From NCBI GenBank assembly GCA_026126125.1, contig JAHCJW010000007.1, forward strand, positions 1 to 55,370: a DNA stretch of 55,370 bases, read 5' to 3'. The position numbers and the translations under genes are program-made. The notes under the pieces were generated by a model that was given only the letters and a program-made list of their open reading frames with translations, did no database searches and was not told where the DNA came from. This stretch comes from Devosia sp. (GTDB lineage Bacteria; Pseudomonadota; Alphaproteobacteria; Rhizobiales; Devosiaceae). Positions 795 to 20,558 of this stretch are shown piece by piece; positions within the stretch are counted from its first letter, which is position 1, and each line of letters begins with the position of its first letter.

Positions 795-2432
795 TCACCC
801 CCCGAGATAACGGTTCAAGACGTTGGCGGTCACCTTCTCCACCATCGGGTCTTCTTTCAGCAGCCCGGCGATCCATTCGCAGCTGCCGGCATGAAACACT
901 TCGCCCTGGCCCATGGCGAAGTTGACGATCATGCCGCAGCCGCGCTTGACCTTGTCGACATGCTCCGCTTCGTCGCTGCCAAAGCGCAGCCGCGCCACGA
1001 AACGCGCATCGGCATCGCCCATGAAGCGATGTTCCGAGGCGATGTCCGCGCTTTCCTCCTTCAAGGAAGACAGGCCGAGCCCAAGGATCTGCAATCCCTC
1101 GGGCGCGCCGCTCGTCGCGGTCGGCTCGGGCAGGCCATCACGAATGATATAGTCCAGGCCATCGACCTCGTATCCGTAGACATGGCTGTCGACGCCCAGT
1201 TGATCCCCGTAATAAAGGCCCGTGCCGGCGAATGCCCAATGCTCAGGCCGATAGATCGGAAAACCTCGCGTTCCGCGTGGCGCGCATCCGCCCCAGCCCG
1301 TATACATTCCATTCGTGGCGTTGAGGCCAAAGGTCAGCGCTCCGGGCCTTCCGATATGCGGGTCTTCCCAGGCGCCCGAGGTGCGGCTTCGATCTGCGGC
1401 CTGATAGAGCGGATCTTCGTCCCGCGCTCGATACTTGTAACAGACATGGCGGGCACCATCGTCCTCGAGACGCGACTGCCACATGAAGTTTCCGGCGAAG
1501 CGCGCGACGTGCCCGCCGCGCTTGACGTAGCTTTCAACCGCGTCGCGCATTTCCCAGGTCCAGTATTCGTCGTGCCCGACAAAGACGACGCAATCATAGC
1601 CATCCAGCAGTTCCGGCATGAAATGCAATTCGTGCTGGCTGGCCAGATCGACGGCGTAGCCCTGCCGCTCGGCCCATCGGAAAAAATGGCTGTCATAGCT
1701 TGCCCAGCCGGAGGACGCATATTTGCGGCTATAACCCTTGGCGAACGCCCATTCCATGTGGGGGTAGCGCGGGATCATCGCCGGAGGAATGGACGGCTCC
1801 AGCGGAACCCGTGGCGCATCCTCGGGCAGCACGACGAAGCCGCGCGCCAAAGGTCGCTCGATGCTGACCACCGGCGAATACTTATTTTTCTGCGGGCCCG
1901 TCAGGCCCTGATAGTGGTTGGAGCCGCCCCAGGTATTGTAGGCGGTCCAGGTTCCGGTCGCCGCGATCTGGAGCAATCGGCCGGGCTTGGCGCCCGGCAT
2001 CGGATGCACGATGAACATGTGATGCCCGACGATGGGCTCGCCCTGTCTGCCTTTGGCGCGCAGCGTCACGCGATAGGCGCCCGAGGGCCAATCCTGCGGA
2101 ATGTCGAATGAAAACCCCGGCTCCCACCCGCATCCGACAAGGGAACAGTCCGGTGGTGTCTCCTGCCAATGGGCGGCGATATGGGTCTGGCTGAAAACCA
2201 CGGTTTCGCATGCGCCGTCACGCGTGATCTCAAGATCGAAAAGAGGTGCCGACGAACTCACATAGAGATCGACGCGGGCGCCGGCCGGATAGGCATAGCG
2301 GCGGGTGTAGCACCAGATCTCGCCCTTATCGCCGTCCATGCCGGGATATTCGTAGTAATGCCCTCGCACAGCCTCGTTCAACTGTTCGGGTGATAATCCG
2401 TGGTCGACAAAATCGCGGTTATACGGGGTCAT
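795..2432 (-). CDS. N,N-dimethylformamidase large-subunit-like protein
   Basis: The 545-residue protein resembles the C-terminal catalytic part of the large (beta) subunit of N,N-dimethylformamidase, an iron enzyme that hydrolyses small amides. Recognisable segments are the aromatic-rich stretch AYNTWGGSNHY near residue 165, the GHDEYWTWEMRDAVE segment near 290 and the tyrosine-rich regions from which this family draws metal ligands (two Tyr and one Glu in the studied enzyme). It is shorter than the roughly 760-residue classical subunit, and no gene for the small alpha subunit lies next to it. The ATG has a GGAAGGA ribosome site. It is the last gene of the leftward operon, so an amide substrate is likely, but the real substrate is unknown. 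Confidence 0.75.
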   Translation of the reverse strand: MTPYNRDFVDHGLSPEQLNEAVRGHYYEYPGMDGDKGEIWCYTRRYAYPAGARVDLYVSSSAPLFDLEITRDGACETVVFSQTHIAAHWQETPPDCSLVGCGWEPGFSFDIPQDWPSGAYRVTLRAKGRQGEPIVGHHMFIVHPMPGAKPGRLLQIAATGTWTAYNTWGGSNHYQGLTGPQKNKYSPVVSIERPLARGFVVLPEDAPRVPLEPSIPPAMIPRYPHMEWAFAKGYSRKYASSGWASYDSHFFRWAERQGYAVDLASQHELHFMPELLDGYDCVVFVGHDEYWTWEMRDAVESYVKRGGHVARFAGNFMWQSRLEDDGARHVCYKYRARDEDPLYQAADRSRTSGAWEDPHIGRPGALTFGLNATNGMYTGWGGCAPRGTRGFPIYRPEHWAFAGTGLYYGDQLGVDSHVYGYEVDGLDYIIRDGLPEPTATSGAPEGLQILGLGLSSLKEESADIASEHRFMGDADARFVARLRFGSDEAEHVDKVKRGCGMIVNFAMGQGEVFHAGSCEWIAGLLKEDPMVEKVTANVLNRYLGG

Positions 2433-2501
2433 GATAATGCTTCCTTCCCCGACGGCCGTGAAGGCCGCGTCGGCGGAGTTGGGTCAGGAGGATCTGGCGG
2501 A

Positions 2502-3893
2502 TCAGGCGGCGGCTGCGATCTGCGTCAGGGGCTGCTGGAGCAGGGCGATCAGCGGCCGGTAGTCACCGGCATCGAACGCATGAAACGCCGCCTTGAAGGC
2601 CGAAGTCTCGTAATTGCGGGTGGCAACGTCGAACTTCTCCGTCAGCTTGTCGCGGGCCATGGGATTGTCGGGGTCGCCGAGCGGATAGAGAACCTCGCGC
2701 ATATGCTGCCCCGTCGCGGTTTTCAGGATGATGCGCGCCGCGGTGGTCTCGGGAAAACGATTGTCGAGTGCCGGGTCGACGAACAGGCTGACGCGGCGGG
2801 CGAAATTGACGGCCTTCTCGTCGTGCAGGCGCTGCTGTGACAGCGGCAGCAAGGCTTCCCGGCCATATTGAGCAGCGACGCCCAGGACGAAAGGCACTGA
2901 ATACTGCGCTCCTTCCAGCGTGTCCGGATCGGTATCGTTGTTGAGTTTGAGGGCGCGAGCAAAGGTGTGTACTTCGACCTGCTCTACGGCATCGACGCGC
3001 AGGCCGTCATGCTCGAGAATATCGGTCAACCCGTCAATGGCGGCATGCGCCCAGCGGCAGCACGAATAGGGTTTGAAATACACCCGCTCGATCGCGGATG
3101 ACCGGCCAAGACCGCGGACGATATTCGACGCTTCGAAATAGGCGTGATGATCGAGAATATCGGTGGGGCCGGTGAAGCCATTGGCGGCAAGGTCAACGGC
3201 GAGAATGCCGGTCAGGGTGCTCCACGGAATCCCTTCCTTGGCATGATTGCCCATGACCTTGGAGTAGCCGGCGGCCGACTGGTTCGGCCCATGCACGCCG
3301 GCAATCGCCATCGCCTGGACCAATTGGCCATGATCGAGGCCACGCAAGCGGCCCACGGCGGCGGCCACGCCATAATTGCACCATTTGCCCGTCGACATGG
3401 TGTCGAGGCGGCTGAAGTCGCGTCCGGCGGCCACCCGGACCGCCACTTCGTAGCCCACCACGATGGCAACGGCCAGTTCTTCCCAGCTGGCGTCGACCTC
3501 CTCGGCCACGGCAAGGCACGCCGGTATGATCGCCGCGCCGGGGTGACCGGTTGCTGCGCGATGGCCGTCATCGAGGTCGAGAATGCTCGCGGCATTGCAG
3601 TTCGCCAGCACGGCGGCGCTCGCCGGAACCTTGGTGCCGGAGAACCATACCGAGCTTGGACCGGTGCCGAACGCACTTCCGGACACGGCTCGGGCCGCGC
3701 GGGCGCCCACTTCATCCGAGCCGGCGATCGCCGCGGTCACGCAGTCGAGCACGCAATCGCGCACCGATTGTAAGGTCGTCTCCGACAATTTTGCGGCCGA
3801 GACACCCATGACATAGGTCGCCAGCCGCGAAAGCGTGGTGGAGCTTCGGTTGGAAGATTGTGCCAGGGGACGATTGGGGAGCATCAGGGACAT
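2502..3893 (-). CDS. MmgE/PrpD family protein
   Basis: This is a 463-residue member of the MmgE/PrpD family, which includes 2-methylcitrate dehydratase, cis-aconitate decarboxylase and iminodisuccinate epimerase. Typical signs are the N-terminal all-helical half with the segment ILDLDDGHRAATGHPGA near residue 110, and the second half with the KPYSCCRWAHAAID region. I chose the ATG at 3893, because the frame extends upstream only to a TTG. It follows the permease gene by four bases (TGA at 3898) and is probably translated with it. No other methylcitrate-cycle gene is present, so a role in propionate metabolism is unlikely. A dehydration or epimerisation step in the amide pathway is an inference. 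Confidence 0.85.
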   Translation of the reverse strand: MSLMLPNRPLAQSSNRSSTTLSRLATYVMGVSAAKLSETTLQSVRDCVLDCVTAAIAGSDEVGARAARAVSGSAFGTGPSSVWFSGTKVPASAAVLANCNAASILDLDDGHRAATGHPGAAIIPACLAVAEEVDASWEELAVAIVVGYEVAVRVAAGRDFSRLDTMSTGKWCNYGVAAAVGRLRGLDHGQLVQAMAIAGVHGPNQSAAGYSKVMGNHAKEGIPWSTLTGILAVDLAANGFTGPTDILDHHAYFEASNIVRGLGRSSAIERVYFKPYSCCRWAHAAIDGLTDILEHDGLRVDAVEQVEVHTFARALKLNNDTDPDTLEGAQYSVPFVLGVAAQYGREALLPLSQQRLHDEKAVNFARRVSLFVDPALDNRFPETTAARIILKTATGQHMREVLYPLGDPDNPMARDKLTEKFDVATRNYETSAFKAAFHAFDAGDYRPLIALLQQPLTQIAAAA

Positions 3894-3897
3894 TGTC

Positions 3898-4833
3898 TTA
3901 TTTTCCAACTCGTTTCAGTCTCGGATCCATCGCATCGCGAAGGCCGTCTCCGAGCAGATTGACGGATAAAATCGTGAACATGATCGCAAGTCCCGGCAGA
4001 GTCACCAGCCACCATGCGTTGAGGATATAGTTGCGTCCCTCGGCCAGCATGATGCCCCAGGTTGGCGTGGGCGGAGGGACGCCCATGCCCAAAAAGGACA
4101 GCCCGCTTTCCCAGATGATGTAGTTGGCGGCGCGAACGGTCGCCAATACGAGGATGGGGGCAAGGATGTTGGGAACGACGTGACGACGGATGATCGTCCG
4201 GTTGCGGGCGCCAATCGCTTCAGCCGAGCGGATATAATCCTTGTTGCGCACGGCGATAACGCTGCCACGCACCGTGCGGGCATAGGTCACCCAATCGGCA
4301 AGCGCGAGAATGATGATCAGATTGGTAAGCGAAGGCCCCAGCAAGGCAATCACCGAGATTGTGAGGAGCATAAAGGGATAGGCCAGGAAAAGGTCGCCGA
4401 CTCGCATGATGATGCTGTCGACCCAGCCGCCATAGAAGCCGGAAAGTGTCCCAAGCACCAGACCTACCGTAAGGGCTATCGCCACCGCGCAAAGCGCTAC
4501 GGTGATGGACACACGGCCGCCGACCAGGATCCGGCCCAGTACGTCCCGGCCCAAATTGTCGGTGCCGAGGGGAACCGACCACGACCCGCCCTCCTGCCAG
4601 ACCGGAGGCACGAATGTATTGAGCAGGTTGGTCGCTTCGCCATCCTGGCCGAGCAGGGTCGGCACGACAAAGCAGGAAAATATGATCAGCGCGAGGATAA
4701 TCGCCCCGATGAAGGCGCTGGGGCTTTGCAGCAAAAGCGAGCACAGCGCCGACCATGCCCGTGCCGGCCAGGCGGTCCGCGTCATCGCCAGATCATCATC
4801 TCTGATCCCTGCGGCCGATTGGTTCTGGCTCAT
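3898..4833 (-). CDS. Dpp/Opp-type ABC transporter permease (DppC-like)
   Basis: This is a 311-residue inner-membrane permease of the peptide/nickel importer family. The N-terminal transmembrane segment (residues about 38-60) is followed by the family's extended loop with the SVPLGTDNLGRDVLGRILVG motif. Four or five further membrane spans carry the binding-protein-dependent transport signature, with SAEAIGARNRTIIRRHVVPN as the EAA loop that contacts the ATPase. It overlaps the dppB-like gene by four bases (ATGA), which suggests translational coupling. With the neighbouring ATPases and binding protein it makes one full importer. The substrate is not shown by the sequence. Confidence 0.92.
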   Translation of the reverse strand: MSQNQSAAGIRDDDLAMTRTAWPARAWSALCSLLLQSPSAFIGAIILALIIFSCFVVPTLLGQDGEATNLLNTFVPPVWQEGGSWSVPLGTDNLGRDVLGRILVGGRVSITVALCAVAIALTVGLVLGTLSGFYGGWVDSIIMRVGDLFLAYPFMLLTISVIALLGPSLTNLIIILALADWVTYARTVRGSVIAVRNKDYIRSAEAIGARNRTIIRRHVVPNILAPILVLATVRAANYIIWESGLSFLGMGVPPPTPTWGIMLAEGRNYILNAWWLVTLPGLAIMFTILSVNLLGDGLRDAMDPRLKRVGK

Positions 4834-5759
4834 TTGCTTTCCCCCTGCAGGCTGACATTTGGGTCCAACCAGCCATAGGCGAGATCGACCAGAAGATTGA
4901 CCATGACGAAAACCATGGCCAGCAGCATTACCGCTCCCTGGACCACCGGATAATCGCGGTCCATGATCGCCTGCACGATCAGGCGCCCGACGCCCGGCCA
5001 GGCGAAGACGGTTTCGATGATCACCGCGCCGCCCAGCAGCAGCCCGAACTCCATGCCGATCATCGTGATCACCGGGATCATCGCATTTTTCAACGCGTGC
5101 TTGCCGATCACGAGATATCCCGGCAGGCCCTTGGCGCGGGCGGTGCGGACATAATCCTGCCCGAGCACTTCAAGCATGGTCGAGCGCGTCAGGCGCGCAA
5201 ACAGCGCAACCATGGAAATGCCCATGGCGGCGGCGGGCATGATGATATGAAGAAAACTGCCCCTGCCGGAGGTCGGCAACCAGCCCAATTGCACGGAAAA
5301 CAACATAATCATCATGATGCCGAGCCAGAAATGGGGCATGGACAGGCCGAACAGCGCCAGGATCATGCTGGCCGTATCGATGATTGTACCGCGTTTCAGC
5401 GCCGAAACGATCCCGATGGGCAGGGCGATCACCAGGGCGAACGCCATGGAGAAAAAGGCCAGTTCGACCGTTGCCGGCAGTCTCTCGAGGATAAGGCCGG
5501 CCACCGGCTCGTTGGAAAACAGCGAGCGTCCGAGATCGCCCTGAAGGGCATTGCCGGCAAAGCGCAGGTACTGGAAGATGACCGGATCGTCGAGGCCCAG
5601 CTTGTGGCGCAGCTCTTCGATCTGCTGCGAGGTCGCATCCTGCGGCAGCATCAACCCGACCGGGTCGCCGGACAGCTGCAGGAAGACGAAGCTGATGATC
5701 GAGATGCCGATGATCACCAGGACGGTGTGGCCCAGCCTCTTCAGAATATGGGACAGCAT
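4830..5759 (-). CDS. Dpp/Opp-type ABC transporter permease (DppB-like)
   Basis: This is a 309-residue inner-membrane permease that pairs with the DppC-like protein. It starts MLSHILKRLGHTVLVIIGIS, the usual DppB beginning: a short cytoplasmic stretch and a first membrane helix that runs into FVFLQLSGDPV. The EAA loop is ARAKGLPGYLVIGKHALKNA. I chose the ATG at 5759 over the in-frame upstream one at 5825, because GGAG lies about ten bases before it and it matches the family start. A strong stem-loop separates it from the binding-protein gene. Confidence 0.92.
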   Translation of the reverse strand: MLSHILKRLGHTVLVIIGISIISFVFLQLSGDPVGLMLPQDATSQQIEELRHKLGLDDPVIFQYLRFAGNALQGDLGRSLFSNEPVAGLILERLPATVELAFFSMAFALVIALPIGIVSALKRGTIIDTASMILALFGLSMPHFWLGIMMIMLFSVQLGWLPTSGRGSFLHIIMPAAAMGISMVALFARLTRSTMLEVLGQDYVRTARAKGLPGYLVIGKHALKNAMIPVITMIGMEFGLLLGGAVIIETVFAWPGVGRLIVQAIMDRDYPVVQGAVMLLAMVFVMVNLLVDLAYGWLDPNVSLQGESK

Positions 5760-5837
5760 GCAATCTGCTCCGACAGGAAGTGAAAACGGCTGGCCCGCGT
5801 GCAAGCCCGAGACCGACAAAAGCATCAGCCGTCGAAT

Positions 5838-5871: not shown

Positions 5872-5888
5872 GCCTTAATCAGCAGCGA

Positions 5889-7394
5889 TCAGCCGTTCTT
5901 GGGCGAAGCGTACCGCATGAACAAGAACCCGTCCCGCCGTCCTTCATAGTCGACATTGGGTGCCAGCCCATAAGTGACCGGGATCACGTAGAGGAACACC
6001 CAGGGCGCCTCTTCATAGAGCTTGCGGTCGAACTCCTGATAGATCTTCTCACGCTCTGCGCGGTCCAGCGTCGAACGTCCCTTGGCAAGGATCGCGTCCG
6101 TCTCGGGGTTTTTGTAGTAGTAATCGCGGCTGTTGGAGTGGAGCAGGGTATAGGCGTAGCGATCCGGCTCCGGATTGTCGTCCCACCAATACACATACAT
6201 GTCCTGTTCACGGGCGCGATACTGCTCGACCATCACCGAGCGGTCCAGCGGCCGCAGTTCAACCTTGACGCCGATCTTGGCCAGATCCGCAGCGATGACC
6301 TGGGTCTGTTCCTGAATCTGGATCATGTCGGTCGGATAGCTGAGCGTGGTCGAAAAGCCATCGGGATAACCGGCCTCGGCAAGCAGCGCCTTGGCCTTTT
6401 CCGGATCATACGGATACGGATGGAGGTCGAGATCGGCACCGAAGGTGCGCGGGCTGAGCGGCCCGGCGGTCAGGATGGCCTTATCGGCGAACAACGCCTT
6501 GTTGATCAGCTCGCGGTTGATGCCATAGTTGAGCGCCTGGCGCACCCGCTGGTCGTCAAACGGCTTCTCATAGGTGTTGAGGCCGAGATAGTTCATGATC
6601 CCCATGCTGTTGGTCAGCCGGCCACGCCCCGATTTTTCGATCAGGTCCTGGCTGTTGCGGGATACGCCTTCGACAAAGCCCACCTCGCCGGTCAGCAGGG
6701 CTGCCACGCGGGAGCTTTCTTCGGGAATGGCGCGGAAAACCAGCCGGTCATAGGCGGGCTTGCCGGCCCAATAGCCGTCAAATGCGGTCAGCACGATGTC
6801 GCCGCCGCGATCCCATTTCTCAAAGACATAGGGACCGGCGCCGATGGGATGGCGATTGAACGTGTCGGGATCGGTTTCCGCCGCCGCTTTCGGCGGCACG
6901 ATGGCCAGATAGATCGACATCAGATGCAGGATGGGAGCGAAAGGTTCGGCCGTGACGAACTCCACCGTCAACGGGTCGATGATGCTGACACCGGTGATCT
7001 GCTGCATGCGCCCCGCATGAGGCGAGGCAATCGCCGGGTCCTGAAGGCGCTCCAGCGAGAACTTCACCGCATTCGCGTCGACCGGCTCTCCATTGTGGAA
7101 CGTCAGGCCTGTCCGCAGCTTGACCCTGAGCGTGGTGTCGCTGGTAAACTCCCAGCTTTCTGCCAGGCCCGGCCCGACGCCGCCGTCTTCAAGCGGGTCG
7201 AACAGACGGTCCTGGATATTGAAGGCGACATTCAGGGAATGCTGCAGATTATTGCGCGCGACATCGAGCCCGACCGGCTCGGCCGACTGCGCGACGATCA
7301 GCTGCGTGTCTTGCGCCAGCGATAATTGTGGCGAACTTAACGCCACGGTGAGAGCAAGGGCTCCTGCCCCCACCCATTTCTTCAACATCTGCAT
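5889..7394 (-). CDS. ABC transporter substrate-binding protein, family 5
   Basis: This is a 501-residue periplasmic binding protein of the DppA/OppA family (SBP_bac_5). A signal peptide is clear: KKW, a hydrophobic core, then a likely cleavage after SLAQ near residue 28. The family pattern follows: AEPVGLDVARNN, then the lobe-1 segment LRVKLRTGLTFHNGEPVDA and RVRQALNYGINRE near residue 285. It binds the imported substrate and delivers it to the permease pair. A GAGGAG ribosome site precedes the ATG. The ligand could be a peptide, an opine, an amide or a sugar derivative. The enzymes around it favour a nitrogenous compound. Confidence 0.92.
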   Translation of the reverse strand: MQMLKKWVGAGALALTVALSSPQLSLAQDTQLIVAQSAEPVGLDVARNNLQHSLNVAFNIQDRLFDPLEDGGVGPGLAESWEFTSDTTLRVKLRTGLTFHNGEPVDANAVKFSLERLQDPAIASPHAGRMQQITGVSIIDPLTVEFVTAEPFAPILHLMSIYLAIVPPKAAAETDPDTFNRHPIGAGPYVFEKWDRGGDIVLTAFDGYWAGKPAYDRLVFRAIPEESSRVAALLTGEVGFVEGVSRNSQDLIEKSGRGRLTNSMGIMNYLGLNTYEKPFDDQRVRQALNYGINRELINKALFADKAILTAGPLSPRTFGADLDLHPYPYDPEKAKALLAEAGYPDGFSTTLSYPTDMIQIQEQTQVIAADLAKIGVKVELRPLDRSVMVEQYRAREQDMYVYWWDDNPEPDRYAYTLLHSNSRDYYYKNPETDAILAKGRSTLDRAEREKIYQEFDRKLYEEAPWVFLYVIPVTYGLAPNVDYEGRRDGFLFMRYASPKNG

Positions 7395-7447: not shown

Positions 7448-8470
7448 TTAACTGGATTTTGCGCCAGCCTCGGCCGGTGGCGGCTCATGGCCGCCGTTTG
7501 TCGGCGCATAAAGATGACAGGTCACTCGTCTGCCCCCGCCCAGGTCGGTAAAGCCGGGCGCGACAGTGCGGCACTGTTTCAAGGCCACGGGACAGCGCGG
7601 ATGGAAGTGACAGCCCGTTGGCGGGTTGATCGGCGAGGGCATCTCACCGACCAGAAGCTGGCGGGTCCGCTCGGGCCGCAGGCGCGGTAGCGGCACGGCG
7701 TCGATCAGCCCCTTGGTGTAGGGGTGCAACGGTTCGCGGAATACATCTTCGGTAAGACCTTCCTCGACCACGCGCCCCAGATACATCACCGCCACGCGAT
7801 GGCAGATGAAGCGTATCGCGCCCAGGTCGTGGCTGACCATGACGTAGCTGGCGCCGAATTCCGCCTGCAATTGCTTCATGAGGTTGAGAATCTGCGCCCG
7901 GATCGACACATCGAGCGCCGAAACCGGCTCGTCGCCGATGATCAGGTCCGGTCGCAGGATCAGCGCGCGGGCAATGCCGATGCGCTGGCGTTGGCCGCCG
8001 GAGAATTCGTGCGGATGGCGCTCGCTCAGGCGGGGGTCCAGCCCCACCGACGCCATCACGTCCCGCACTTTTTCCAGCCGTGTCGCCGCGTCGTCACTGG
8101 TATGGACGCTCAGCGGCTCGTCGATCAGCTGGCGCACCGTCATGCGCGGGTTGAAGGAGCCGAACGGATCCTGAAAGACGATCTGCATATGGCGTCGTTC
8201 CGCCCGCAGCTCTTCCTTGGACAGGTGGGTGATATCGCGTCCGCGAAACACGATCTTGCCCGCATCGGGTTCGACCAGCCGCAGCATGGCGCGGGACAGG
8301 GTGGTTTTGCCACAGCCCGATTCGCCGACGATACCCAGGGTTTCGGCCCGGCCGAGGCTGAAGGAAACGCCATCGACCGCGTGAATGTAGCGCTGCTGTT
8401 TTGAGAAGAGACGCTTTGGCAGTTCGAAGCGCCGGACAAGGTTGGTGACCTCAAGCAGCTTAGTGTGCAT
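7448..8470 (-). CDS. Oligopeptide-type ABC transporter ATPase (DppF/OppF-like)
   Basis: This is a 340-residue cytoplasmic ATPase. Walker A is GESGCGKTT, the signature is FSGGQRQRIGIARAL and Walker B is LIIGDEPVSALD. The C-terminal oligopeptide-transporter extension has the cysteine pattern HFHPRCPVA plus a later Cys, which in this subfamily can bind an iron-sulfur cluster. The ATG at 8470 overlaps the end of the DppD-like gene by 11 bases. I prefer it to an upstream in-frame start because protein similarity begins at KLLEVTNLVRRF. Confidence 0.93.
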   Translation of the reverse strand: MHTKLLEVTNLVRRFELPKRLFSKQQRYIHAVDGVSFSLGRAETLGIVGESGCGKTTLSRAMLRLVEPDAGKIVFRGRDITHLSKEELRAERRHMQIVFQDPFGSFNPRMTVRQLIDEPLSVHTSDDAATRLEKVRDVMASVGLDPRLSERHPHEFSGGQRQRIGIARALILRPDLIIGDEPVSALDVSIRAQILNLMKQLQAEFGASYVMVSHDLGAIRFICHRVAVMYLGRVVEEGLTEDVFREPLHPYTKGLIDAVPLPRLRPERTRQLLVGEMPSPINPPTGCHFHPRCPVALKQCRTVAPGFTDLGGGRRVTCHLYAPTNGGHEPPPAEAGAKSS

Positions 8471-9446
8471 CCGTTGCCTCCCAACACGCGACGTGATGGT
8501 CGGCGCCAACCTTGATGCGCTGCGGATCTGACGTGGTGCAGATGTCGCGCGCTATCGGGCAGCGAGGATGAAAACGGCACCCGCCCGGCAGATGTCCCGG
8601 CCTTGGCACATTGCCTTTGATTTCATGCAGTATGGCGGGCATCACCTCGGCATCGGGCTGGGGAACGGCCCGCATCAGGCCGCGCGTATAAGGATGGCGC
8701 GGGTTTTGAAACAGCTCGGCCACAGGCGCTTCTTCGACGACGCGCCCGCAATAGAGCACGGCCACCCGATCGGCGACTTCCGCTACCACGCCCAGATCGT
8801 GCGAGATAAAGATGATCGCCGTGCCGAAATTTCGTTGCAGGCCGCGCATGAGTTCGAGGATCTGCGCCTGTATCGTCGCGTCGAGAGCGGTCGTGGGCTC
8901 ATCGGCGATCAGGACTTTCGGCCGGCATGCCAGCGCCATGGCGATCATCACCCGCTGCCGCATCCCACCCGACAGATCGGCTGGATATTGCGTCACGCGG
9001 ATCTCCGGCGAGGGCACCCCAACCTCGGCCAGGGCATCGACGGCCTTGCGCCGCGCTTCCGCCTTTGACATGCCGCGGTGGGTCCGGAACACTTCGGCCA
9101 CCTGGTCGCCAACGGTAAAAACCGGATTGAGCGCCGTCAGTGGCTCCTGAAAGATCATGCTGATTTCATTGCCGCGGATGGCGCGGATCTTTCGCTCCGA
9201 TAGATCGGTAAGCGATTTTCCCTCGAGCCGGATATTGCCGCCCGCGATGCGCAGCCCCGGCTCCAGAAGGCGCAGGATGGAATAGGACAGCAGGCTCTTG
9301 CCGCAGCCTGACTCGCCAACCAGCCCCAATACCTGTCCGGCCTGGAGGTTCAGCGAGACCTCGTCGACCAGGCGCACTTGCCTGCCCGCAGACACGGCGT
9401 CGATCGAAAGACGATCAATTTCAAGCAATGGTGGCCCTGCATTCAT
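8460..9446 (-). CDS. Oligopeptide-type ABC transporter ATPase (DppD/OppD-like)
   Basis: This is a 328-residue cytoplasmic ATPase, the partner of the DppF-like subunit. Walker A is GESGCGKSL, the signature is LSGGMRQRVMIAMAL and Walker B is VLIADEPTTALD. The C-terminal segment CRFHPRCPIARDIC is the oligopeptide-type extension. The ATG at 9446 has a GGGGAAG ribosome site. The frame also reaches a TTG six bases upstream, which I reject. It is the first gene of the leftward operon, about 60 bases behind the promoter and operator at 9505-9559. Confidence 0.93.
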   Translation of the reverse strand: MNAGPPLLEIDRLSIDAVSAGRQVRLVDEVSLNLQAGQVLGLVGESGCGKSLLSYSILRLLEPGLRIAGGNIRLEGKSLTDLSERKIRAIRGNEISMIFQEPLTALNPVFTVGDQVAEVFRTHRGMSKAEARRKAVDALAEVGVPSPEIRVTQYPADLSGGMRQRVMIAMALACRPKVLIADEPTTALDATIQAQILELMRGLQRNFGTAIIFISHDLGVVAEVADRVAVLYCGRVVEEAPVAELFQNPRHPYTRGLMRAVPQPDAEVMPAILHEIKGNVPRPGHLPGGCRFHPRCPIARDICTTSDPQRIKVGADHHVACWEATDAH

Positions 9447-12897: not shown

Positions 12898-14631
12898 ATG
12901 ACTATCGCTGCCCAAGCAACGTCTCGCGTCACGGAACTCACCGAGCGCCCCGGCGTCAATCCGATCACGCTGGAAATCGTTCGTAACGGCCTTACCATGA
13001 TCGCCGAGCAGATATCGCGCCGCATGATCCGCGCCGGAACCTCCTATATCATCAAGGAGATGGAGGACTGTTCGGCCGCCCTGTTCGATGGTCAGGCGCG
13101 CCTTCTCGCCGAAAGCGCTTCCATTCCGATCCACCTCAATTGCATCGGCATCACCCTCAAGACCGTCCTCGAGCATTATTATCCGGCCGACACCTGGCGG
13201 CCCGGTGACGTTGTCATCACCAACGACCCCTATGCGGGGGGAGGGTCGATGTCCTCGCATCATACCAACGATATCATCGCCTTCTTTCCGGTATTCTCTG
13301 CCGAGCGTCTTGTTGGTTTCACCGCGCTCAACACCCACCACATGGATATTGGCGCGATGTGGATGGGCACGCGCGGCTGGGGCGTGGAAATCTGGCAGGA
13401 AGGGCTGCGCATCCCGCCGCTCAAATTGATGCGCGAAGGCAAGCTGGACACAGCGCTGATGGCGCTGATCCTCAACAATACGCGCGTTCCGCTTATTCTC
13501 GAAAACGACCTGGTGGCGGAAATGTCGGCGATCCAGAAGGGCGCCGAAGAAATGCAGGCGATGTTCGCCAGCTATGGCACGGACACCGTTCTCGAGTGTT
13601 TTGACGAGCTGATCCGCCAATCCGAACGGCGGACGCGCGCCGAAATCGCCGCCATTCCCGATGGCGTCTACCGCCACGAAGAGAAGATCCTCGACGACGG
13701 CGCCAAGGGTGGGCCCTATACGCTGTGCCTCACCATGACCGTCGAGGGCGACAATATCACCTTCGATTATACGGGCACCGATCCGCAGATCGACGGGCCG
13801 ATCAATGCGCCTCTCTCGGCCACCATGGCGGCGACCTATTATGTGATGAAGTGCATCACCGACTCGACCATCCCCAATACCGAAGGCTGCTCGCGCCCGA
13901 TCACCATCATCGCTCCCCCCGGAAGCCTGGTGAATGCCCAGCTCCCGGCCGCCTGTTTCCAGCGCATGATCGTCTGCCATTCGATTGTCGACCTGATCAT
14001 GGGCGCAATGGCCCAGGCCGTCCCCGAGCGCTCGATGGCCGATAGCTGTGGCTGTCTCTACAATTCCGTCGTTGCCCCGCATCTTGACACCGGCGAGATC
14101 GGTGTTGCGTCCGAAGTGGTGCCCGGCGGCATCGGCGCGACCTCGCGTGCCGATGGTCTCAACGTCATGTCCTGCCACGTCACCAATTGCCCCATCCCCC
14201 CGATCGAGGCGACCGAGATCGAGGCGCCGGTGCTCTATATGCGCCGGGAATTTTCGCAGGACAGCGGTGGCGCGGGCTATTGGCGCGGTGGCCTGGGGCA
14301 AGTGCTCGAATACAAGGTTCTGGGCAAGAACCCTCTCTTCCACCATACCTCGCAGAAATCCGTCATTCCCCCGCAGGGCATGATGGGCGGCCTGCCGGGC
14401 AATGGCGGCGGCTGGTATATCAACCGGGGCACCGACCAGGAGCGCAAGGTTGAATACGCCATCGGCGACGTTGAGTTCCTCAAGGCCGGCGACACCGTAA
14501 CCCATATCAGCCCCGGCGGCGGCGGTTACGGCAATCCGCTCGCGCGCGATCGGCAGCGGGTCGAAAACGACATCGTGGCTGGCTTCATCAGCCGCGAGGC
14601 GGCTGCAAAACTCTACGGCTTCTCGTCCTGA
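12898..14631 (+). CDS. Hydantoinase/oxoprolinase subunit B (HyuB family)
   Basis: This is a 577-residue partner of the preceding subunit and is expected to form a complex with it. The Hydantoinase_B domain spans nearly the whole protein. Typical stretches are GDVVITNDPYAGGGSMSSHH near residue 105, FDYTGTDPQIDGPINAPLSA near 290 and the glycine-rich C-terminus HISPGGGGYGNPLARD. It starts 21 bases after subunit A. The split into two genes is the bacterial norm, whereas 5-oxoprolinase of eukaryotes is one chain. Confidence 0.92.
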   Translation: MTIAAQATSRVTELTERPGVNPITLEIVRNGLTMIAEQISRRMIRAGTSYIIKEMEDCSAALFDGQARLLAESASIPIHLNCIGITLKTVLEHYYPADTWRPGDVVITNDPYAGGGSMSSHHTNDIIAFFPVFSAERLVGFTALNTHHMDIGAMWMGTRGWGVEIWQEGLRIPPLKLMREGKLDTALMALILNNTRVPLILENDLVAEMSAIQKGAEEMQAMFASYGTDTVLECFDELIRQSERRTRAEIAAIPDGVYRHEEKILDDGAKGGPYTLCLTMTVEGDNITFDYTGTDPQIDGPINAPLSATMAATYYVMKCITDSTIPNTEGCSRPITIIAPPGSLVNAQLPAACFQRMIVCHSIVDLIMGAMAQAVPERSMADSCGCLYNSVVAPHLDTGEIGVASEVVPGGIGATSRADGLNVMSCHVTNCPIPPIEATEIEAPVLYMRREFSQDSGGAGYWRGGLGQVLEYKVLGKNPLFHHTSQKSVIPPQGMMGGLPGNGGGWYINRGTDQERKVEYAIGDVEFLKAGDTVTHISPGGGGYGNPLARDRQRVENDIVAGFISREAAAKLYGFSS

Positions 14632-14698: not shown

Positions 14699-16276
14699 AT
14701 GTCCCGCGCATCCCTGCCTCGCGTCACCTATTCCAACACCCATGCCGATTTTTCGGGTGTCCATGCATTGCTCGATACGATGATCCCACAGGTTACTGCC
14801 GACCTTCTCGGCAAGTCCTGGCCTCACCGGATCGCTGGAGAAGACGTGGCCGATGGCGTGCTCTATGACGCGTGGTCGCCGATCGACAAGCGTATGCTGC
14901 TCGGCCGTTTCTACAATGGCGGCCGAGCGGTGGTGGACCAGGCCGTCAAGGCCGCTCGCGCCGCTCAGCCCGGCTGGGCCGCGACCCCATGGCCACAGCG
15001 CCTCGCGCTCATCCGCCGCTTTGCCGATCGGCTGGAGGCCAACAAGTTCGAACTGGCCGTCGCCTGTCTGCTCGAAGTGGGAAAGTCGCGGCTCGAAGCG
15101 ATGGGCGAAGCCGAAGAGGCGATCGATCTGGTGCGCTATTACAGCCATCAGATGGAAGAGAATCACGGCTTCGTCCGCCCGATGAGCCGTGCCTTCGCCA
15201 ATGAGGAAACCAGCGACCGGCTACGCCCCTATGGCGTTTTCGGCGTGATCGCGCCGTTCAATTTTCCCCTGGCGCTGTCCGTCAGCATGATTTCCGCCGC
15301 CCTCATCGCCGGCAATGGCGTGGTCTACAAGCCGAGCGAGTTCGCCGGACTGACCGGCGCCCTGATCATGCGCGCCGCCGAAGAAGCCGGCCTGCCGCCA
15401 GGCCTGTTCAACCTTGTCTGCGGCAATGGTGAGACCGGCTTGGCCATGGTCGAACATCCCGAATTCGACGGGTTCGGTTTCACTGGCAGCTACAGGGTCG
15501 GTACCTCCATTCTGCGGGCCGCCGCGAACGGCGCCTATAACCGTCCGGTGGTTGTCGAGATGGGCGGCAAAAACCCGACCTATGTCACGGCCTCGGCGGA
15601 CATCGTGCGGGCTGCCCGCGGCGTCATGCGCTCCGCTTTTGGCCTGCAGGGCCAAAAATGCTCTGCCGGCTCCAAGGTCTATGTCCATGCCGACGTCAAG
15701 CAAGACTTCCTCGACACGCTCGTCCAACTGACACAGACGATCAAGATCGGGGACCCGGCCGACATTTCCGTCTTCATGGGCCCGCTCATCAACGAGGCAT
15801 CCTTCCGGCGCTTTGAAACAGCCTGCGCCGATGCCGGCCGCGACGGGCATATCCTGACAGGGGGCAAGCGTCTCTCCGGCGCGGGCTATGATCATGGCTT
15901 CTATGTCGAGCCGACCATAGTCGATGGCCTGCCTGCCGATCATCACCTCAACAAGGAAGAGCTGTTTCTGCCCTTTCTGACCATCCAGAGCTTTACCGAT
16001 CTTTCCCTGGCGCTGGCCGATGGCAATGCCGTCGCCTATGGGTTGACCGCCGGGTGCTATTCCCAGGACCAGGGGGAGATCGAGCAATTTCTCGATCACG
16101 CGCAGGCGGGCGCGCTCTATGTCAATCGCGCCAGCGGCGCCACGACCGGCGCCTGGCCCGGTATCCAGACTTTCTGCGGCTGGAAGGGCTCAGGCGTCTC
16201 CGGCAAGGGCGGGCTGGGTCCTTACTATCTTCAGCAATTCATGCGCGAACAGAGCCACACCATCTGGCGTGACTGA
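14699..16276 (+). CDS. Aldehyde dehydrogenase, P5C-dehydrogenase-like
   Basis: This is a 525-residue NAD(P)-dependent aldehyde dehydrogenase that oxidises an aldehyde to a carboxylate in the cytoplasm. The catalytic residues are visible: Asn188 in APFNFP, Glu287 in VEMGGKNP and the nucleophile Cys321 in GLQGQKCSAG. The APFNFPLA and QGQKCSA wording is closest to 1-pyrroline-5-carboxylate dehydrogenases (RocA, PutA C-terminal domain). The substrate may therefore be an amino-acid semialdehyde produced by the oxidase encoded next. An AAGAGG ribosome site precedes the ATG. Confidence 0.9.
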   Translation: MSRASLPRVTYSNTHADFSGVHALLDTMIPQVTADLLGKSWPHRIAGEDVADGVLYDAWSPIDKRMLLGRFYNGGRAVVDQAVKAARAAQPGWAATPWPQRLALIRRFADRLEANKFELAVACLLEVGKSRLEAMGEAEEAIDLVRYYSHQMEENHGFVRPMSRAFANEETSDRLRPYGVFGVIAPFNFPLALSVSMISAALIAGNGVVYKPSEFAGLTGALIMRAAEEAGLPPGLFNLVCGNGETGLAMVEHPEFDGFGFTGSYRVGTSILRAAANGAYNRPVVVEMGGKNPTYVTASADIVRAARGVMRSAFGLQGQKCSAGSKVYVHADVKQDFLDTLVQLTQTIKIGDPADISVFMGPLINEASFRRFETACADAGRDGHILTGGKRLSGAGYDHGFYVEPTIVDGLPADHHLNKEELFLPFLTIQSFTDLSLALADGNAVAYGLTAGCYSQDQGEIEQFLDHAQAGALYVNRASGATTGAWPGIQTFCGWKGSGVSGKGGLGPYYLQQFMREQSHTIWRD

Positions 16277-16381: not shown

Positions 16382-16678
16382 ATGTATAGTCCCCGCTTCC
16401 ATCGTATCGCCGAGACTGACCGACCCAAGATCGTGCTGACCGTCGACGGAAGGCCGGTTGACGCCGCCGATGGGGACACGCTCCTGACCGTGCTGATGCG
16501 CCATGACGGCTGGGTTCGGGACAGCGAGTTTGATGGGCAGCGCCGCGCCGGTTTCTGCGCCATGGGGGCTTGTCAGGATTGCTGGCTGACGCTCGCGGAT
16601 GGCCAGCGCCTGCGCGCCTGTACGACAGTCGCCAGAACGGGAATGGCTATCGTCAGAAAGCCGGCTACCCATGACTGA
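16382..16678 (+). CDS. (2Fe-2S)-binding small subunit of an opine/amino-acid oxidase (HcnA-like)
   Basis: This is a 98-residue ferredoxin-like protein. Four cysteines fit a plant-type [2Fe-2S] site: Cys59, Cys64 and Cys67 in FCAMGACQDCW, and Cys80. Proteins of this size and pattern form the small subunit of heterotrimeric opine oxidases, hydrogen cyanide synthase (HcnA) and D-hydroxyproline or proline dehydrogenases. It overlaps the next gene by eight bases, and the two large partners follow at once. Its job is electron transfer between the flavoproteins. Confidence 0.85.
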   Translation: MYSPRFHRIAETDRPKIVLTVDGRPVDAADGDTLLTVLMRHDGWVRDSEFDGQRRAGFCAMGACQDCWLTLADGQRLRACTTVARTGMAIVRKPATHD

Positions 16679-18068
16679 CGGCGATATGACTTCAGCAGAC
16701 ACGCCGCGCATCGCCATCATTGGCGCCGGGCCGGCAGGCATCCGCGCTGCTGAAACGCTGGTCGAGGCCGGTTTGCGCGTCACCCTCATCGACGAAGCCG
16801 CTCTGCCTGGCGGCCAGATCTATCGGCAGCCGCCGCCGACCTTGCGGCGTCCCGCCAAGGCGCTTTATGGCTTTGAAGCCGGCAAGGCCGAGGCCCTCCA
16901 TTCCAGTTTCGCGCGCTTGCGGTCGGCCATCGACTACCGCCCCGAAACGCTTGTCTGGGGAGCGCGGGACAATCGCCTGCTCCTCTCCAGCCGCGCCGGA
17001 AATACGGAAATCGCCTTTGACAAGCTTATCCTGGCGACCGGAGCGATGGATCGTATCGCCCCTGTCGCCGGCTGGACGCAGCCGGGGGTCTATTCTTTGG
17101 GCGGGGCACAGGTGGTGCTGAAGCACCAGGCCTGCCTCATCGGCAAGCGCCCGATTTTCGCCGGAACCGGACCCTTGCTGTATCTGATCGCCTGGCAATA
17201 TCTGCGAGCCGGTTCCCGGCCGGCCGCCGTTCTCGACACCGGCAGTTTCGCCGGCCAGTTGCGGGCCCTTCCGCGCCTCGCAAGGCAGCCGCGAACCTTG
17301 CTCAAGGGCCTCTATTTCACCGCCGCCCTGCGAGCGAAGGGCATTCCCGTCCTTTACTCCGCCCTGCCAGCCCGGATCGATGCCCGGGACGATAATCTGG
17401 TCCTCACCTATACCCGGAATGGCAGGAGCCATGAGATCGCCGGAGACGCGGTGGCTCTGGGCTCCGGCCTGAAGCCGGAAACGCAATTGGCGGAAATCCT
17501 CGGCTGCGCCTTCGATTTCCACTCGCCATCGCGGTCCTATCTGCCGCGCTGCGATCGCATGGGGCGCAGCAGCCTTGCGACCACCTATATCGCGGGGGAC
17601 ACCGGCGGCATTCGGGGCGCCGATGCCGCCGAGGCCGGAGGCGCGCTGGCCGCGCTGGCGGTATTGGAAGATCTCGGACGCTCCGTCCCGGAAGTGCGCA
17701 AGCGGCAATTATTGACCCATATGCGGCGAGCCGAGATTTTTCGATCGGGCCTCGAGCTGGCCTTCGCCTATCCCGCGCCCGCCATAGCGGGCTTGGCGGA
17801 TGATACGGTGCTGTGCCGCTGCGAAAACGTCACCATAGGCGATCTGCGTGCCGCGATACCGCAGTGGAACATCACCGAAATGAACCGGCTCAAGGCCATC
17901 ACGCGTTGCGGCATGGGGCGCTGTCAGGGCCGCGTCTGCGGTTCCGCCGCCATGGAGGTGCTGGCGAGCGAAACCCACGCGCCAATCGAGAGCGTGGGAC
18001 GCCTGCGAGGACAGATCCCACTCAAGCCGGTCGTCGGCAGCAATTTCGAGACCAAGGCCGCGTCGTGA
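16671..18068 (+). CDS. FAD/NAD(P)-binding oxidoreductase with BFD-like domain (HcnB-like)
   Basis: This is a 465-residue flavoprotein, the middle subunit of an HcnABC/opine-oxidase-type complex. The N-terminus holds the Rossmann motif GAGPAG (residues 18-23). A second nucleotide-binding region and the FAD motif YIAGDTGGI come later. The C-terminal BFD-like [2Fe-2S] region has CRCENVTIGDL and RCGMGRCQGRVCG. I chose the ATG at 16671 inside the end of the ferredoxin gene; an ATG at 16686 is possible. It ends in a four-base overlap with the next gene. Confidence 0.87.
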   Translation: MTDGDMTSADTPRIAIIGAGPAGIRAAETLVEAGLRVTLIDEAALPGGQIYRQPPPTLRRPAKALYGFEAGKAEALHSSFARLRSAIDYRPETLVWGARDNRLLLSSRAGNTEIAFDKLILATGAMDRIAPVAGWTQPGVYSLGGAQVVLKHQACLIGKRPIFAGTGPLLYLIAWQYLRAGSRPAAVLDTGSFAGQLRALPRLARQPRTLLKGLYFTAALRAKGIPVLYSALPARIDARDDNLVLTYTRNGRSHEIAGDAVALGSGLKPETQLAEILGCAFDFHSPSRSYLPRCDRMGRSSLATTYIAGDTGGIRGADAAEAGGALAALAVLEDLGRSVPEVRKRQLLTHMRRAEIFRSGLELAFAYPAPAIAGLADDTVLCRCENVTIGDLRAAIPQWNITEMNRLKAITRCGMGRCQGRVCGSAAMEVLASETHAPIESVGRLRGQIPLKPVVGSNFETKAAS

Positions 18069-19216
18069 CCGATATCGTGCAATATGATGTCTGCATCATT
18101 GGGGGCGGGCTGGTCGGCTGTTCTGCCGCTCTGCATCTGACGCGGGCCGGTCAGTCCGTGGTGCTGGTGGAGCGCGACAGCGTTGGCGCGCATGCGAGTG
18201 GCGTGAACTTTGGTGGGGTGCGCCGCCACGGGCGCAACGCGCTTGAGTTGCCGCTGTCCCTGCGCTCGCTCGATATCTGGCGCAATATGGCGGCGCTGGT
18301 CGGCAATGACTGCGAATTCATGCCCTGCGGCCATCTCAAGGTTGCGCGCAACGAAGCTGAAATGTCGGTTCTGGAGCAATGGCGCGGCTTCGGCGCGCAG
18401 CATGGGATCGATGTGGAGCTGCACAATGGCGCCAAACTACGGCAGCGGTTTCCCTGGCTGTCCGCCCAGATCTACGGGGCGTCCTTCTGCCCTGGTGATG
18501 GCCATGCCAATCCACGTCTGGCAGCGCCCGCCTTTGCGCTGCGCGCCCGGGCGGAAGGCGCCGTCATCATCGAGGGAGACGGCGCGGATGTGATCGAAGA
18601 CGCGCAGGGCGGCTTTGAGGTCACTTTAATGTCCGGCAAACGCCTTCGGGCGAGCGTTCTCGTCAACGCTGCCGGCGCCTGGGGGCGCACGATCGCCGCC
18701 CGCTACGGAGACGATGCTCCGGTCAACGCCGTCGCGCCGCAAATGTTCGTCAGCGAACCCGTTCCCTATTTCATTGACGCCGTATTGGGCATGGTATGCG
18801 GCGGGCTCTATCTGCGGCAAATCCCCCGTGGCAATGTGATTTTCGGGGGTGGACGCGGCACGCTCAGCCCCGACCAGCGCTCGAGCTGGCCAAGCGATCG
18901 CGTCTTTGCCGAAACCGTTGGTCTCGCCGGAGAAATCATCCCCCAGCTGAGAAACCTGGCCATTATTCGCTCCTGGACCGGTGTCGAGGGCAATTGCGAT
19001 GATGGTCTTCCCGTCGTCGGGTCGTCGCCGCGCCGCCAGGGCCTCTATCATGCCTTCGGCTTCTCTGGTCATGGCTTCCAAATGGCGCCAGCCGTAGGTG
19101 CGGTCCTCAGCGAACTGATCACGCGCGGCGCCACGCCCACCGACATTTCCGCCCTCAGTCCGCAGCGTTTCGCCGACGCAAAAAGCGGCCTGGTCATGGC
19201 TGAGAGTGAAATCTGA
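18065..19216 (+). CDS. FAD-dependent amino-acid/opine oxidase subunit (DAO family, HcnC-like)
   Basis: This is a 383-residue flavoprotein of the D-amino-acid oxidase/sarcosine oxidase fold and probably the catalytic subunit of the three-part complex. GGGLVGCSAALHL binds the FAD ADP part near residue 12. The C-terminus has VEGNCDDGLPVVGSSP and AFGFSGHGFQMAPAVG, as in glycine-oxidase relatives. The start is GTG at 18065 within GTGA, fused to the previous stop codon, so translation is coupled. Such enzymes oxidise the C-N bond of secondary amines (opines, D-proline derivatives, N-methyl amino acids). Confidence 0.87.
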   Translation: MTDIVQYDVCIIGGGLVGCSAALHLTRAGQSVVLVERDSVGAHASGVNFGGVRRHGRNALELPLSLRSLDIWRNMAALVGNDCEFMPCGHLKVARNEAEMSVLEQWRGFGAQHGIDVELHNGAKLRQRFPWLSAQIYGASFCPGDGHANPRLAAPAFALRARAEGAVIIEGDGADVIEDAQGGFEVTLMSGKRLRASVLVNAAGAWGRTIAARYGDDAPVNAVAPQMFVSEPVPYFIDAVLGMVCGGLYLRQIPRGNVIFGGGRGTLSPDQRSSWPSDRVFAETVGLAGEIIPQLRNLAIIRSWTGVEGNCDDGLPVVGSSPRRQGLYHAFGFSGHGFQMAPAVGAVLSELITRGATPTDISALSPQRFADAKSGLVMAESEI

Positions 19217-19229
19217 CAAGGAACATCCC

Positions 19230-20558
19230 ATGAGCCATGTGTTTCACCGCTCGACGAGAAGCGTCCCGCTCACTGCCAGCCATGGTTCGGGCTCCGTCAT
19301 TTTCGACAAGAGCGGCAGAGCCTATCTCGATGCCTGCGGGGGCGCGGCGGTGTCATGCATCGGCCATGACGACACCGACGTCATGGCCGCCATCGCTGAG
19401 CAGACGGGCAAGCTCGCTTATGCGCATACGAGCTTTTTCACCTCGGAGGCGGCGGAAGAACTCGCCACCGTGCTCAGCGCGAGCACCTTCCATCAGCTCC
19501 CCAAGGTATACTTCACCTGCGACGGATCGGAGGCATGTGAAACCGCCCTGAAAATGGCGCATGGCTACCACCGCGAGCGCGGCGAGCCCCAGCGGACCCA
19601 CATCATCGCGCGCCGCCAGTCCTATCACGGCAACACGCTGGGCGCCCTGTCGGCCGGCGGCAATATGTGGCGGCGCGCCATCTATGGCGCGCTGATGCTG
19701 CCCAGCGTCTCGCATATTGATCCTTGCTATTTCTACCGAGGCGCCAAACAGGGCGAGAGCCCCGAAGCCTATGGTTGGCGGATGGCCGCGCAACTGGAGG
19801 CGGAGATCGTGCGCATCGGGCCGGAAAACGTCTCCTGCTTCATGGCGGAAACCGTGGTTGGGGCCACGCTCGGCTGTGTTGCCGCCGAAGTGGGCTATTT
19901 TAAAGCCATTCGTGACATCTGCGATCGCCATGGCGTGCTGCTTGTCCTTGACGAGGTCATGTGCGGCATGGGGCGGACCGGCACGCTGCACGCGTTCGAG
20001 CAGGAAGGCATCGTCCCCGACATACTGGTGGTCGCCAAGGGGCTGGGGGCCGGCTATGTGCCGCTGGGCGCCGTTCTTTGTCGGCAGCAGATTTTCGATA
20101 GCTTCCGCGATGGCTCGGGCGCCTTCGTGCATGGCCACACCTTTGTCGGCCATCCCGTGGCCTGCGCGGCGGCCCTCGCCGTGCAAAAGACAATCGCCGC
20201 AAAAAACCTGGTCCAGGCGTCGGCACGACAGGGCGACAAGCTGCGCAACCTGCTTGTCGAGCGCTTTGGGCAGCATCCCCATATCGGCGATATCAGGGGG
20301 CGCGGGCTGTTCGTCGGCCTTGAACTTGTCGAGGACCGCGCGACCAAAAAACCCTTTGATGCCGTCTTGCAGCGCCATGCGGCAATCAAGCAGGCCGCCA
20401 TGGAGCAGGGCCTGCTCATCTATCCGGGCGGCGGCACCATCGATGGGCGCCAGGGTGACCACATCCTGCTGGCGCCGCACTATATCGTCACCGACAGTGA
20501 ACTGGAGTCGATTGCGGTGTTGCTCTCAAGAGCAATCGACGCCGTCATGCCTTGCTAG
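19230..20558 (+). CDS. Class III (omega) aminotransferase
   Basis: This is a 442-residue PLP enzyme. Visible key parts are FTCDGSEACETALKMA near residue 100, SYHGNTLGALSAG near 135, Asp241 in LDEVMCGMGR for the PLP ring nitrogen, and Lys270 in VVAKGLGAGY as the Schiff-base lysine. It moves an amino group between an amine or omega-amino acid and a keto acid or aldehyde. The ATG at 19230 has AAGGA eight bases ahead, and a GTG at 19206 inside the previous gene is less likely. It closes the operon. About 275 bases without a gene or clear signal follow. Confidence 0.9.
   Translation: MSHVFHRSTRSVPLTASHGSGSVIFDKSGRAYLDACGGAAVSCIGHDDTDVMAAIAEQTGKLAYAHTSFFTSEAAEELATVLSASTFHQLPKVYFTCDGSEACETALKMAHGYHRERGEPQRTHIIARRQSYHGNTLGALSAGGNMWRRAIYGALMLPSVSHIDPCYFYRGAKQGESPEAYGWRMAAQLEAEIVRIGPENVSCFMAETVVGATLGCVAAEVGYFKAIRDICDRHGVLLVLDEVMCGMGRTGTLHAFEQEGIVPDILVVAKGLGAGYVPLGAVLCRQQIFDSFRDGSGAFVHGHTFVGHPVACAAALAVQKTIAAKNLVQASARQGDKLRNLLVERFGQHPHIGDIRGRGLFVGLELVEDRATKKPFDAVLQRHAAIKQAAMEQGLLIYPGGGTIDGRQGDHILLAPHYIVTDSELESIAVLLSRAIDAVMPC

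Follow-up and report, generated by a model that had tools for sequence, protein, structure and literature searches.

A Two-Armed Gene Cluster of Devosia sp. with a Common Candidate Operator and Relatives in Opine Regions of Ti Plasmids

Introduction

The closest described counterparts of the gene cluster reported here are found in opine regions of tumour-inducing (Ti) plasmids. The cluster occupies positions 795-20558 of the window, i.e., the whole analysed stretch of 55,370 nucleotides from Devosia sp. (assembly GCA_026126125.1, contig JAHCJW010000007.1, positions 1 to 55,370 of the forward strand), and consists of two divergent arms around a gene for an IclR regulator. The RIC region of pTiS4, pTiAB2/73, and pTiCA75/95 has been published as putatively serving rideopine catabolism, and the passages on this region tie a hydantoinase to the lactam that rideopine forms (PMC8554961, PMC10410297). 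According to the relevant section of one of these papers, the genes of rideopine degradation were not identifiable with confidence (PMC10410297). For pTiEU6, an importer, a three-part oxidase, HyuAB, an asparaginase, and an MmgE protein have been described; in the part of that paper on these genes, HyuAB near the Nox-like oxidase was read as a possible opener of succinamopine lactams and MmgE in the opine region as a 2-methylcitrate enzyme (PMC6733357). Three-part flavin-containing opine dehydrogenases (OdhABC) are known biochemically, as stated in the portion of the report drawn on here (PMC4575208). Among the titles and abstract openings listed from an open-licence library, none pointed to a description of the gene set outside Ti plasmids.

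In this work, the cluster was compared with these systems and with other bacterial genomes. On balance, we lean towards a substrate-inducible regulon for an opine-type compound, namely an N-substituted amino acid that can also be found as its lactam.

Results

Gene Order and Candidate Operator

The original prediction had described fourteen genes in two divergent, tightly spaced arms around one IclR gene and had regarded them as one regulon. All of the claimed families were present, and the 15 genes (eight on the minus and seven on the plus strand) are separated within the arms by gaps of -50 to 105 bp. The value of -50 rests on the longest open reading frame (ORF) of gene F, the true start of which may lie further downstream. 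Gene order, families, common operator, and clade membership are the features that the sequence itself provides.

Both intergenic regions carry CGYACATANRTGCGCAAYRCGYACA, a 25-bp pattern with a triple CGCAC/GTGCG-like repeat. The exact pattern stands at 9505..9529, 52 bp upstream of the start of gene G, the first gene of the left arm, and at 10727..10751, 70 bp upstream of hyuA, the first gene of the right arm. When up to three mismatches were allowed, the whole 3.9-Mb genome contained two sites, both exact and one per arm, while the same pattern read backwards, used as a control, gave no site. The genome of Aquamicrobium defluvii has two exact sites upstream of the same two genes and one overlapping site with three mismatches. 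The 15-bp core of the operator with three mismatches was found four times in the window against 2.8 expected, which is not above chance; its exact matches there are two, namely the two operator sites. In each of the four intergenic regions (two in the window, two in A. defluvii), an exact TTGACA precedes the operator. Between these two elements lie weak -10-like boxes (3, 2-3, 3, and 4 mismatches to TATAAT in the four regions), and no chance expectation was computed for these promoters. The two arms are probably co-regulated through the common operator, as judged from these patterns. The alternative of two unrelated modules lying side by side was rejected in view of the common operator together with the order kept in A. 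defluvii.

The IclR gene R (9774..10574, minus) shares its strand with the left arm, with gaps of 321 bp to that arm and of 247 bp to hyuA. Because of the first of these distances, the left arm may have a promoter of its own. R was assigned by Pfam and scored 278.9 bits with the PcaR/PcaU subfamily model, slightly below the cut-off of 284.75, which leaves it just outside that subfamily. PcaU has a triple 10-bp operator. The regulator would bind the candidate operator just downstream of the -35 box at both arms and, in view of this geometry, would most likely act as a repressor that is released by the substrate or an intermediate.

In A. defluvii, 13 of the 15 genes (A-G, R, H, I, K, L, and M) are kept in the same order at 68-92% identity, so the cluster is not a chance assembly. 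Genes J (aldehyde dehydrogenase, ALDH) and N (aminotransferase) were not found in the 33 kb of the A. defluvii cluster contig. On another contig of that genome (4040-11024), relatives of J (56%) and N (53-54%) stand together; the relative of N is the best match of the genome, and ALDH was searched there on this contig rather than genome-wide. These two relatives flank an amino-acid-type importer and a gene for a SIS-domain protein, with a flavin mononucleotide oxidoreductase gene adjoining.

HyuAB and PrpD Group with Proteins of Ti-Plasmid Opine Regions

The right arm starts with HyuA, an ATP-dependent lactamase/hydantoinase A (gene H, 10822..12876, plus), followed by HyuB (gene I, 12898..14631, plus; Pfam E 7.3e-159). 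HyuA was recognised by Pfam on the longer ORF from 10684, and the position of an ATG at 10822 after a purine-rich stretch makes this the most likely start. When HyuA was compared with 72,556 plasmids, 920 records were matched, the best 12 at 55.4-56.5% identity and the following ones from 44.1% downwards. The same 12 records headed a DNA search. Four of them were opened and all were named pTi (pTiS4, pTiCA74_95, pTiAB2_73, and pTiQ15_94), with the match located in the putative rideopine region. The HyuA tree and the HyuB tree each contained an eight-row clade (support 100/100) of the window, A. defluvii, the four pTi plasmids, and the genomes G303 and G463; deeper joins are unsure in both trees, with long branches elsewhere. 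HyuB is 62-64% identical to its counterparts of the four Ti plasmids. A gene for a flavin adenine dinucleotide (FAD) oxidoreductase lies near HyuAB in all eight members, and in G303 and G463 HyuAB is accompanied by genes for a DAO oxidase and for a TRAP-type importer.

The left arm contains PrpD (gene B, 2502..3908, minus), assigned to MmgE/PrpD by Pfam. In a quick, midpoint-rooted tree with long-branch warnings, from which the pTiEU6 PrpD was absent as being below the threshold, B fell into a group of 16 rows that included each of the eight PrpDs from the four pTi regions (SH-aLRT, the Shimodaira-Hasegawa-like likelihood ratio test, 99). The signature DDGHR...GHP is common to B and these eight proteins, one of which has GHA instead of GHP. 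Proteins of this group also carry YxKPYxCCR or a near form of it, as seen in B, in both pTiS4 proteins (L118, 13601-14932 and 27793-29148), and at three further loci (L141, L142, and L144); the group was found in regions of the opine type as well as on other plasmids of rhizobia. A PrpD that is 60% identical to B is located in genome G070 beside oxidase genes, a family-5 binding protein gene, and a DAO gene.

Membership of B in 2-methylcitrate dehydratase PrpD, and with it a propionate route, was rejected because its score was 32.3 against the NCBIfam cut-off of 950 (one model matched). Compared with iminodisuccinate epimerase, whose catalytic residues are numbered H99 and Y145 in the section used (PMC7347537), B keeps the histidine (as H122) and lacks the tyrosine in an alignment read by eye.

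The remaining genes on the minus strand between B and R encode a peptide-type ABC importer with two permeases (C, 3898..4833; D, 4830..5825; Pfam BPD_transp_1), a family-5 solute-binding protein (E, 5889..7394; SBP_bac_5, E 5.4e-95), and two Opp/Dpp-type ATPases (F, 7448..8509, longest ORF; G, 8460..9452; ABC_tran and oligo_HPY). In pTiS4, pTiCA74_95, and pTiAB2_73, PrpD and a peptide-type importer stand on the IclR strand and face HyuAB, as in the window, while the arrangement in pTiQ15_94 differs from this divergent layout. Three Ti plasmids thus already have, in their putative rideopine region, a divergent IclR gene flanked by HyuAB, PrpD, and a peptide-type importer. In pTiEU6, relatives of 11 of the 15 window genes (B-I and K-M) lie within about 22 kb at 26-48% identity, so that HyuAB, the three-part oxidase, the importer, and PrpD already occur together there as well. 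In the nopaline region of pTiC58, three oxidase-subunit genes adjoin HyuAB.

The Three-Part Oxidase and Its Neighbourhoods

The oxidase is encoded on the plus strand by K (16382..16678, [2Fe-2S] gamma subunit, 75% identical to that of A. defluvii), L (16671..18068, FAD/BFD alpha subunit), and M (18065..19216, catalytic FAD (DAO) beta subunit). The Pfam scan covered the other 14 of the 15 genes, and K was recognised instead by its cysteine motif C-X4-C-X2-C-X12-C (CAMGACQDCWLTLADGQRLRAC), which agrees with the OdhABC motif C-X4-C-X2-C-X11-12-C. L was matched by Pyr_redox_2 and Fer2_BFD on a longer ORF from 16599, and M by DAO (E 4.7e-72) on a longer ORF from 17813. M has both OdhABC motifs, G-X-G-X2-G at residue 13 and Arg-X-Trp as RSW at 302, and resembles sarcosine and glycine oxidases. 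The OdhABC cysteines of the alpha subunit (C-X-C-X15-20-C-X4-C) are present in L, but with a spacing of X28; it is X27 in the pTiEU6 homologue. A role of K-L-M in hydrogen cyanide (HCN) synthesis was rejected by judgement, as their operon also includes genes for importer and lactamase; the judgement involved no separate HCN model. The plus-strand arm also includes J (14699..16276, profile match to ALDH) and, as its last gene, the class-III aminotransferase N (19206..20558; NCBIfam PRK07483, 674.7 bits with a cut-off of 485).

HcnB homologues of L at E <= 1e-80 occur in 37 of the 397 genomes of the order, its own included. We compared 41 listed places of such homologues outside the own genome (stretches of about 20 kb) with 20 controls located 100 kb off from 20 of them. 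Near the oxidase loci, HyuAB was found 13 times (none in controls), PrpD nine times (none), the family-5 binding protein 22 times (one), IclR 15 times (none), ALDH seven times (two), and the aminotransferase three times (none). The dimethylformamidase-like gene was near none of the 41 loci. Together with the absence of J and N from the A. defluvii cluster, this count speaks against the idea of one fixed gene unit.

Three of the 41 loci (G198, G167, and G087; genus code g28), part of which had lain at a stretch edge, were lengthened. In G198 and G167, a one-strand run K-L-M-E-D-C-G-F-B-H-I appeared with no other matches interrupting it, and relatives of ALDH (31-33%) and of the aminotransferase (32-34%) were located beyond the run. 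Altogether 13 of the 15 families lie there within about 25 kb at 27-52% identity, A and R not among them; the oxidase end of G167 and the aminotransferase matches of both genomes are at stretch edges or in separate stretches (L207 and L208 with L129 and L147). Importer, oxidase, PrpD, HyuAB, ALDH, and aminotransferase relatives accordingly stand together in both genomes. The lengthened G087 locus has the importer, the oxidase, and HyuAB, with no PrpD match in the part covered. At loci L167-L173 of f23 genomes, HyuAB relatives directly precede the genes of the oxidase gamma and alpha subunits on the same strand.

The Dimethylformamidase-Like Protein

Gene A (795..2432, minus) encodes a dimethylformamidase-like iron amidohydrolase (Pfam DMFA2_C, E 4.8e-70). 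The active-site residues of Paracoccus dimethylformamidase (PMC7686228) served as the source of comparison: Y165, H287, E289, and N315 of A align with Y399, H519, E521, and N547, and these positions are kept in 84-85 of 85 homologues. No counterpart of the iron ligand Y440 of the 2-Tyr-1-Glu site was placed in the alignment of A. Among solved structures, the best match was N-acetyl-beta-phenylalanine acylase (E 3.1e-12).

As a marker of the pathway, A was of little use. We kept 80 of 311 confirmed candidate loci of A homologues, some of them short, and 79 of these had no HyuAB, PrpD, IclR, or oxidase match of at least 80 bits, the exception being the A. defluvii locus. In six such loci or records with neighbours inspected, the relatives of A stand in other contexts. 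At L012, L042, and L146, relatives of A of about 70% identity precede a class-III aminotransferase gene, and part or all of the three have a beta-keto acid cleavage enzyme, a GNAT acetyltransferase, and a histone-deacetylase-like protein nearby. This neighbourhood is perhaps a pathway for N-acylated beta-amino acids. The open-licence literature gave no match linking dimethylformamidase with an aminotransferase in Mesorhizobium.

Cluster Borders and Spread

The cluster is bordered on the left by a flagellin-like ORF and on the right by a sugar importer, which indicates that its limits were drawn correctly in the original prediction. The sugar importer genes at 20795-28794 are followed by rhamnosidase-like and GH3 glycosidase genes and probably form a separate sugar-use operon. 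Among 101 kin genomes, which include the own one, four had a match of A at E <= 1e-30; outside the own genome, these matches are at 50-51%. HyuB at E <= 1e-120 is rare, being found, own genome included, in 2/397 genomes of the order, 2/385 of the class, and 1/398 of the phylum. Since PrpD at E <= 1e-40 occurs in four of 61 same-genus genomes (own included) while 53 of the 61 have a match to the flanking GH3 gene (the full-length ones at about 50% identity), the cluster was probably acquired. Its G+C content is slightly lower than that of the stretch at 22-36 kb; both signs are weak evidence. The three same-genus genomes with a 41% PrpD otherwise show weak ATPase matches alone from the cluster, within 14-20 kb.

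Discussion

Proposed Pathway and Alternatives

In the pathway that we propose, importer C-G would take up the compound, HyuAB would open the lactam ring at the expense of ATP, and the flavin/iron-sulfur dehydrogenase K-L-M would oxidise the secondary amine to a keto acid and an amine. A may hydrolyse an amide of the substrate or of a product, and N and J could convert the amine part to an acid for central metabolism. The least sure step is that of B, which might act on the dicarboxylic or amino-dicarboxylic part by epimerisation or dehydration. The C-N chemistry attributed to these enzyme families by the original prediction is supported. Among the substrates it had named, an opine stays a candidate, as HyuAB and PrpD group with proteins of the Ti region. 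Its statement that no known pathway has this set needs to be narrowed, as the core has precedent in the three RIC regions, pTiEU6, and G198/G167.

Several observations weigh against an opine-type substrate. The rideopine assignment of the Ti region is itself a published hypothesis, and the section on pTi932 and pTi1078 describes them as rideopine-type plasmids without the lactamase/hydantoinase and several importer genes (PMC10410297); HyuAB is thus not needed for every rideopine pathway. The spermidine/putrescine-type importer of the RIC region is missing from the window cluster, whose sole importer includes a family-5 binding protein. R shares no more than 20-22% identity with its IclR counterparts from the Ti regions, and a search of two Ti IclR-HyuA gaps gave no half-operator. 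HyuAB of pTiC58 and pTiEU6 are 28-35% identical to those of the window, and the pTiEU6 PrpD matches B at 26% over 193 residues. In a quick tree, which did not include the biochemically studied proteins of P. putida and B. japonicum, L stood outside the small pTiC58 and pTiEU6 group, in the other large group. The counts at the 41 loci are not independent, as many loci are related and several are close kin; A was missing from the controls as well as from these loci, and importer, HyuAB, and PrpD were jointly found in none of the stretches of about 20 kb at the thresholds chosen. Finally, G198 and G167 belong to one genus, and their HyuAB (30-36%) and PrpD (31%) are outside the Ti-region groups.

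Enzymes of these families act on lactams other than opines as well. A pathway for an industrial or natural non-opine lactam of the N-methylpyrrolidone or caprolactam type was considered, in which HyuAB would open the ring, the flavin enzyme would strip the N-substituent, and ALDH and aminotransferase would finish the degradation. A cluster for N-methylpyrrolidone reportedly has HyuAB, an amino-acid oxidase, and an aldehyde dehydrogenase, for which the open-literature search gave nothing. HyuA and HyuB do match the caprolactamase CapA/CapB models, but their 554.2 and 251 bits are far under the NCBIfam cut-off of 1000 and place them outside these families. As this route also leaves PrpD, the peptide-type importer, and the grouping with Ti-region proteins unexplained, we regard it as unlikely.

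A shade less likely in our view is a plant or soil compound not made by tumours, such as an N-carboxyalkyl amino acid or an Amadori-type or peptide-derived lactam, the pathway for which was borrowed by Ti plasmids. It would agree with the finding that the window genome and A. defluvii both carry close forms of the cluster and with the same-clade HyuAB next to TRAP-type importers in G303 and G463. The window cluster, which unlike A. defluvii was checked for opine synthases, includes no family of the nicotinamide adenine dinucleotide (NAD)-dependent octopine/nopaline dehydrogenase type. This substrate class overlaps with the opine-type compound that we prefer, and sequence cannot separate the two.

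A hydantoin- or creatinine-type route, with HyuAB as N-methylhydantoinase (the nearest solved relative of HyuA, E 6.3e-143) and the flavin enzyme as a sarcosine-type dehydrogenase in line with the oxidases that M resembles, is improbable, given that no N-carbamoylsarcosine amidohydrolase-type family was among the 14 Pfam-scanned genes, that PrpD and the aminotransferase are left without a role, and that the closest HyuAB plasmid relatives opened lie in opine regions.

A further suggestion, doubtful as it is, can be made: the window and A. defluvii might have a tumour-independent opine-lactam pathway for a rideopine-like metabolite outside galls, the HyuAB and PrpD of Ti plasmids might come from such stock, and the PrpDs with DDGHR might be an unrecognised opine-catabolic class. 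The enzymes that degrade rideopine have not been assigned confidently in the literature section cited above (PMC10410297), and the cluster offers a route to their roles. Because A. defluvii DSM 11603, a type strain, carries a compact cluster with a candidate operator, its substrate and what HyuAB and PrpD do would become testable without tumour material.

Comparison with Known Systems

Like the Paracoccus dimethylformamidase in its published description, A has the DMFA2_C domain and the four active-site residues, in a protein of 545 instead of 775 residues (PMC7686228). K-L-M resemble OdhABC in their three subunits, in the nucleotide and Arg-X-Trp motifs of beta, and in the cysteine motif of gamma, whereas the alpha subunit L stands apart from the pTiC58 and pTiEU6 proteins. 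The succinamopine region of pTiEU6 shares with the window, within about 23 kb, HyuAB, MmgE/PrpD, the three-part oxidase, the peptide-type importer, and, in the form of an asparaginase, an amide hydrolase; it differs in its LysR regulators, two beta subunits, HyuAB of 28-34% identity, and a remote PrpD. In comparison with the RIC region, the window has the three-part oxidase in place of a single FAD enzyme, the dimethylformamidase-like amidase in place of an N-formylglutamate amidohydrolase, a single PrpD where the RIC region has two, an only distantly related IclR, and a different operator. Common to both are HyuAB of the same clade (HyuA 55-57%, HyuB 62-64%), PrpD of the same group (36-42%), a peptide-type ABC importer, an IclR gene divergent from HyuA, an FAD oxidoreductase, and ALDH, and the pTiS4 region has a class-III-type aminotransferase gene as well.

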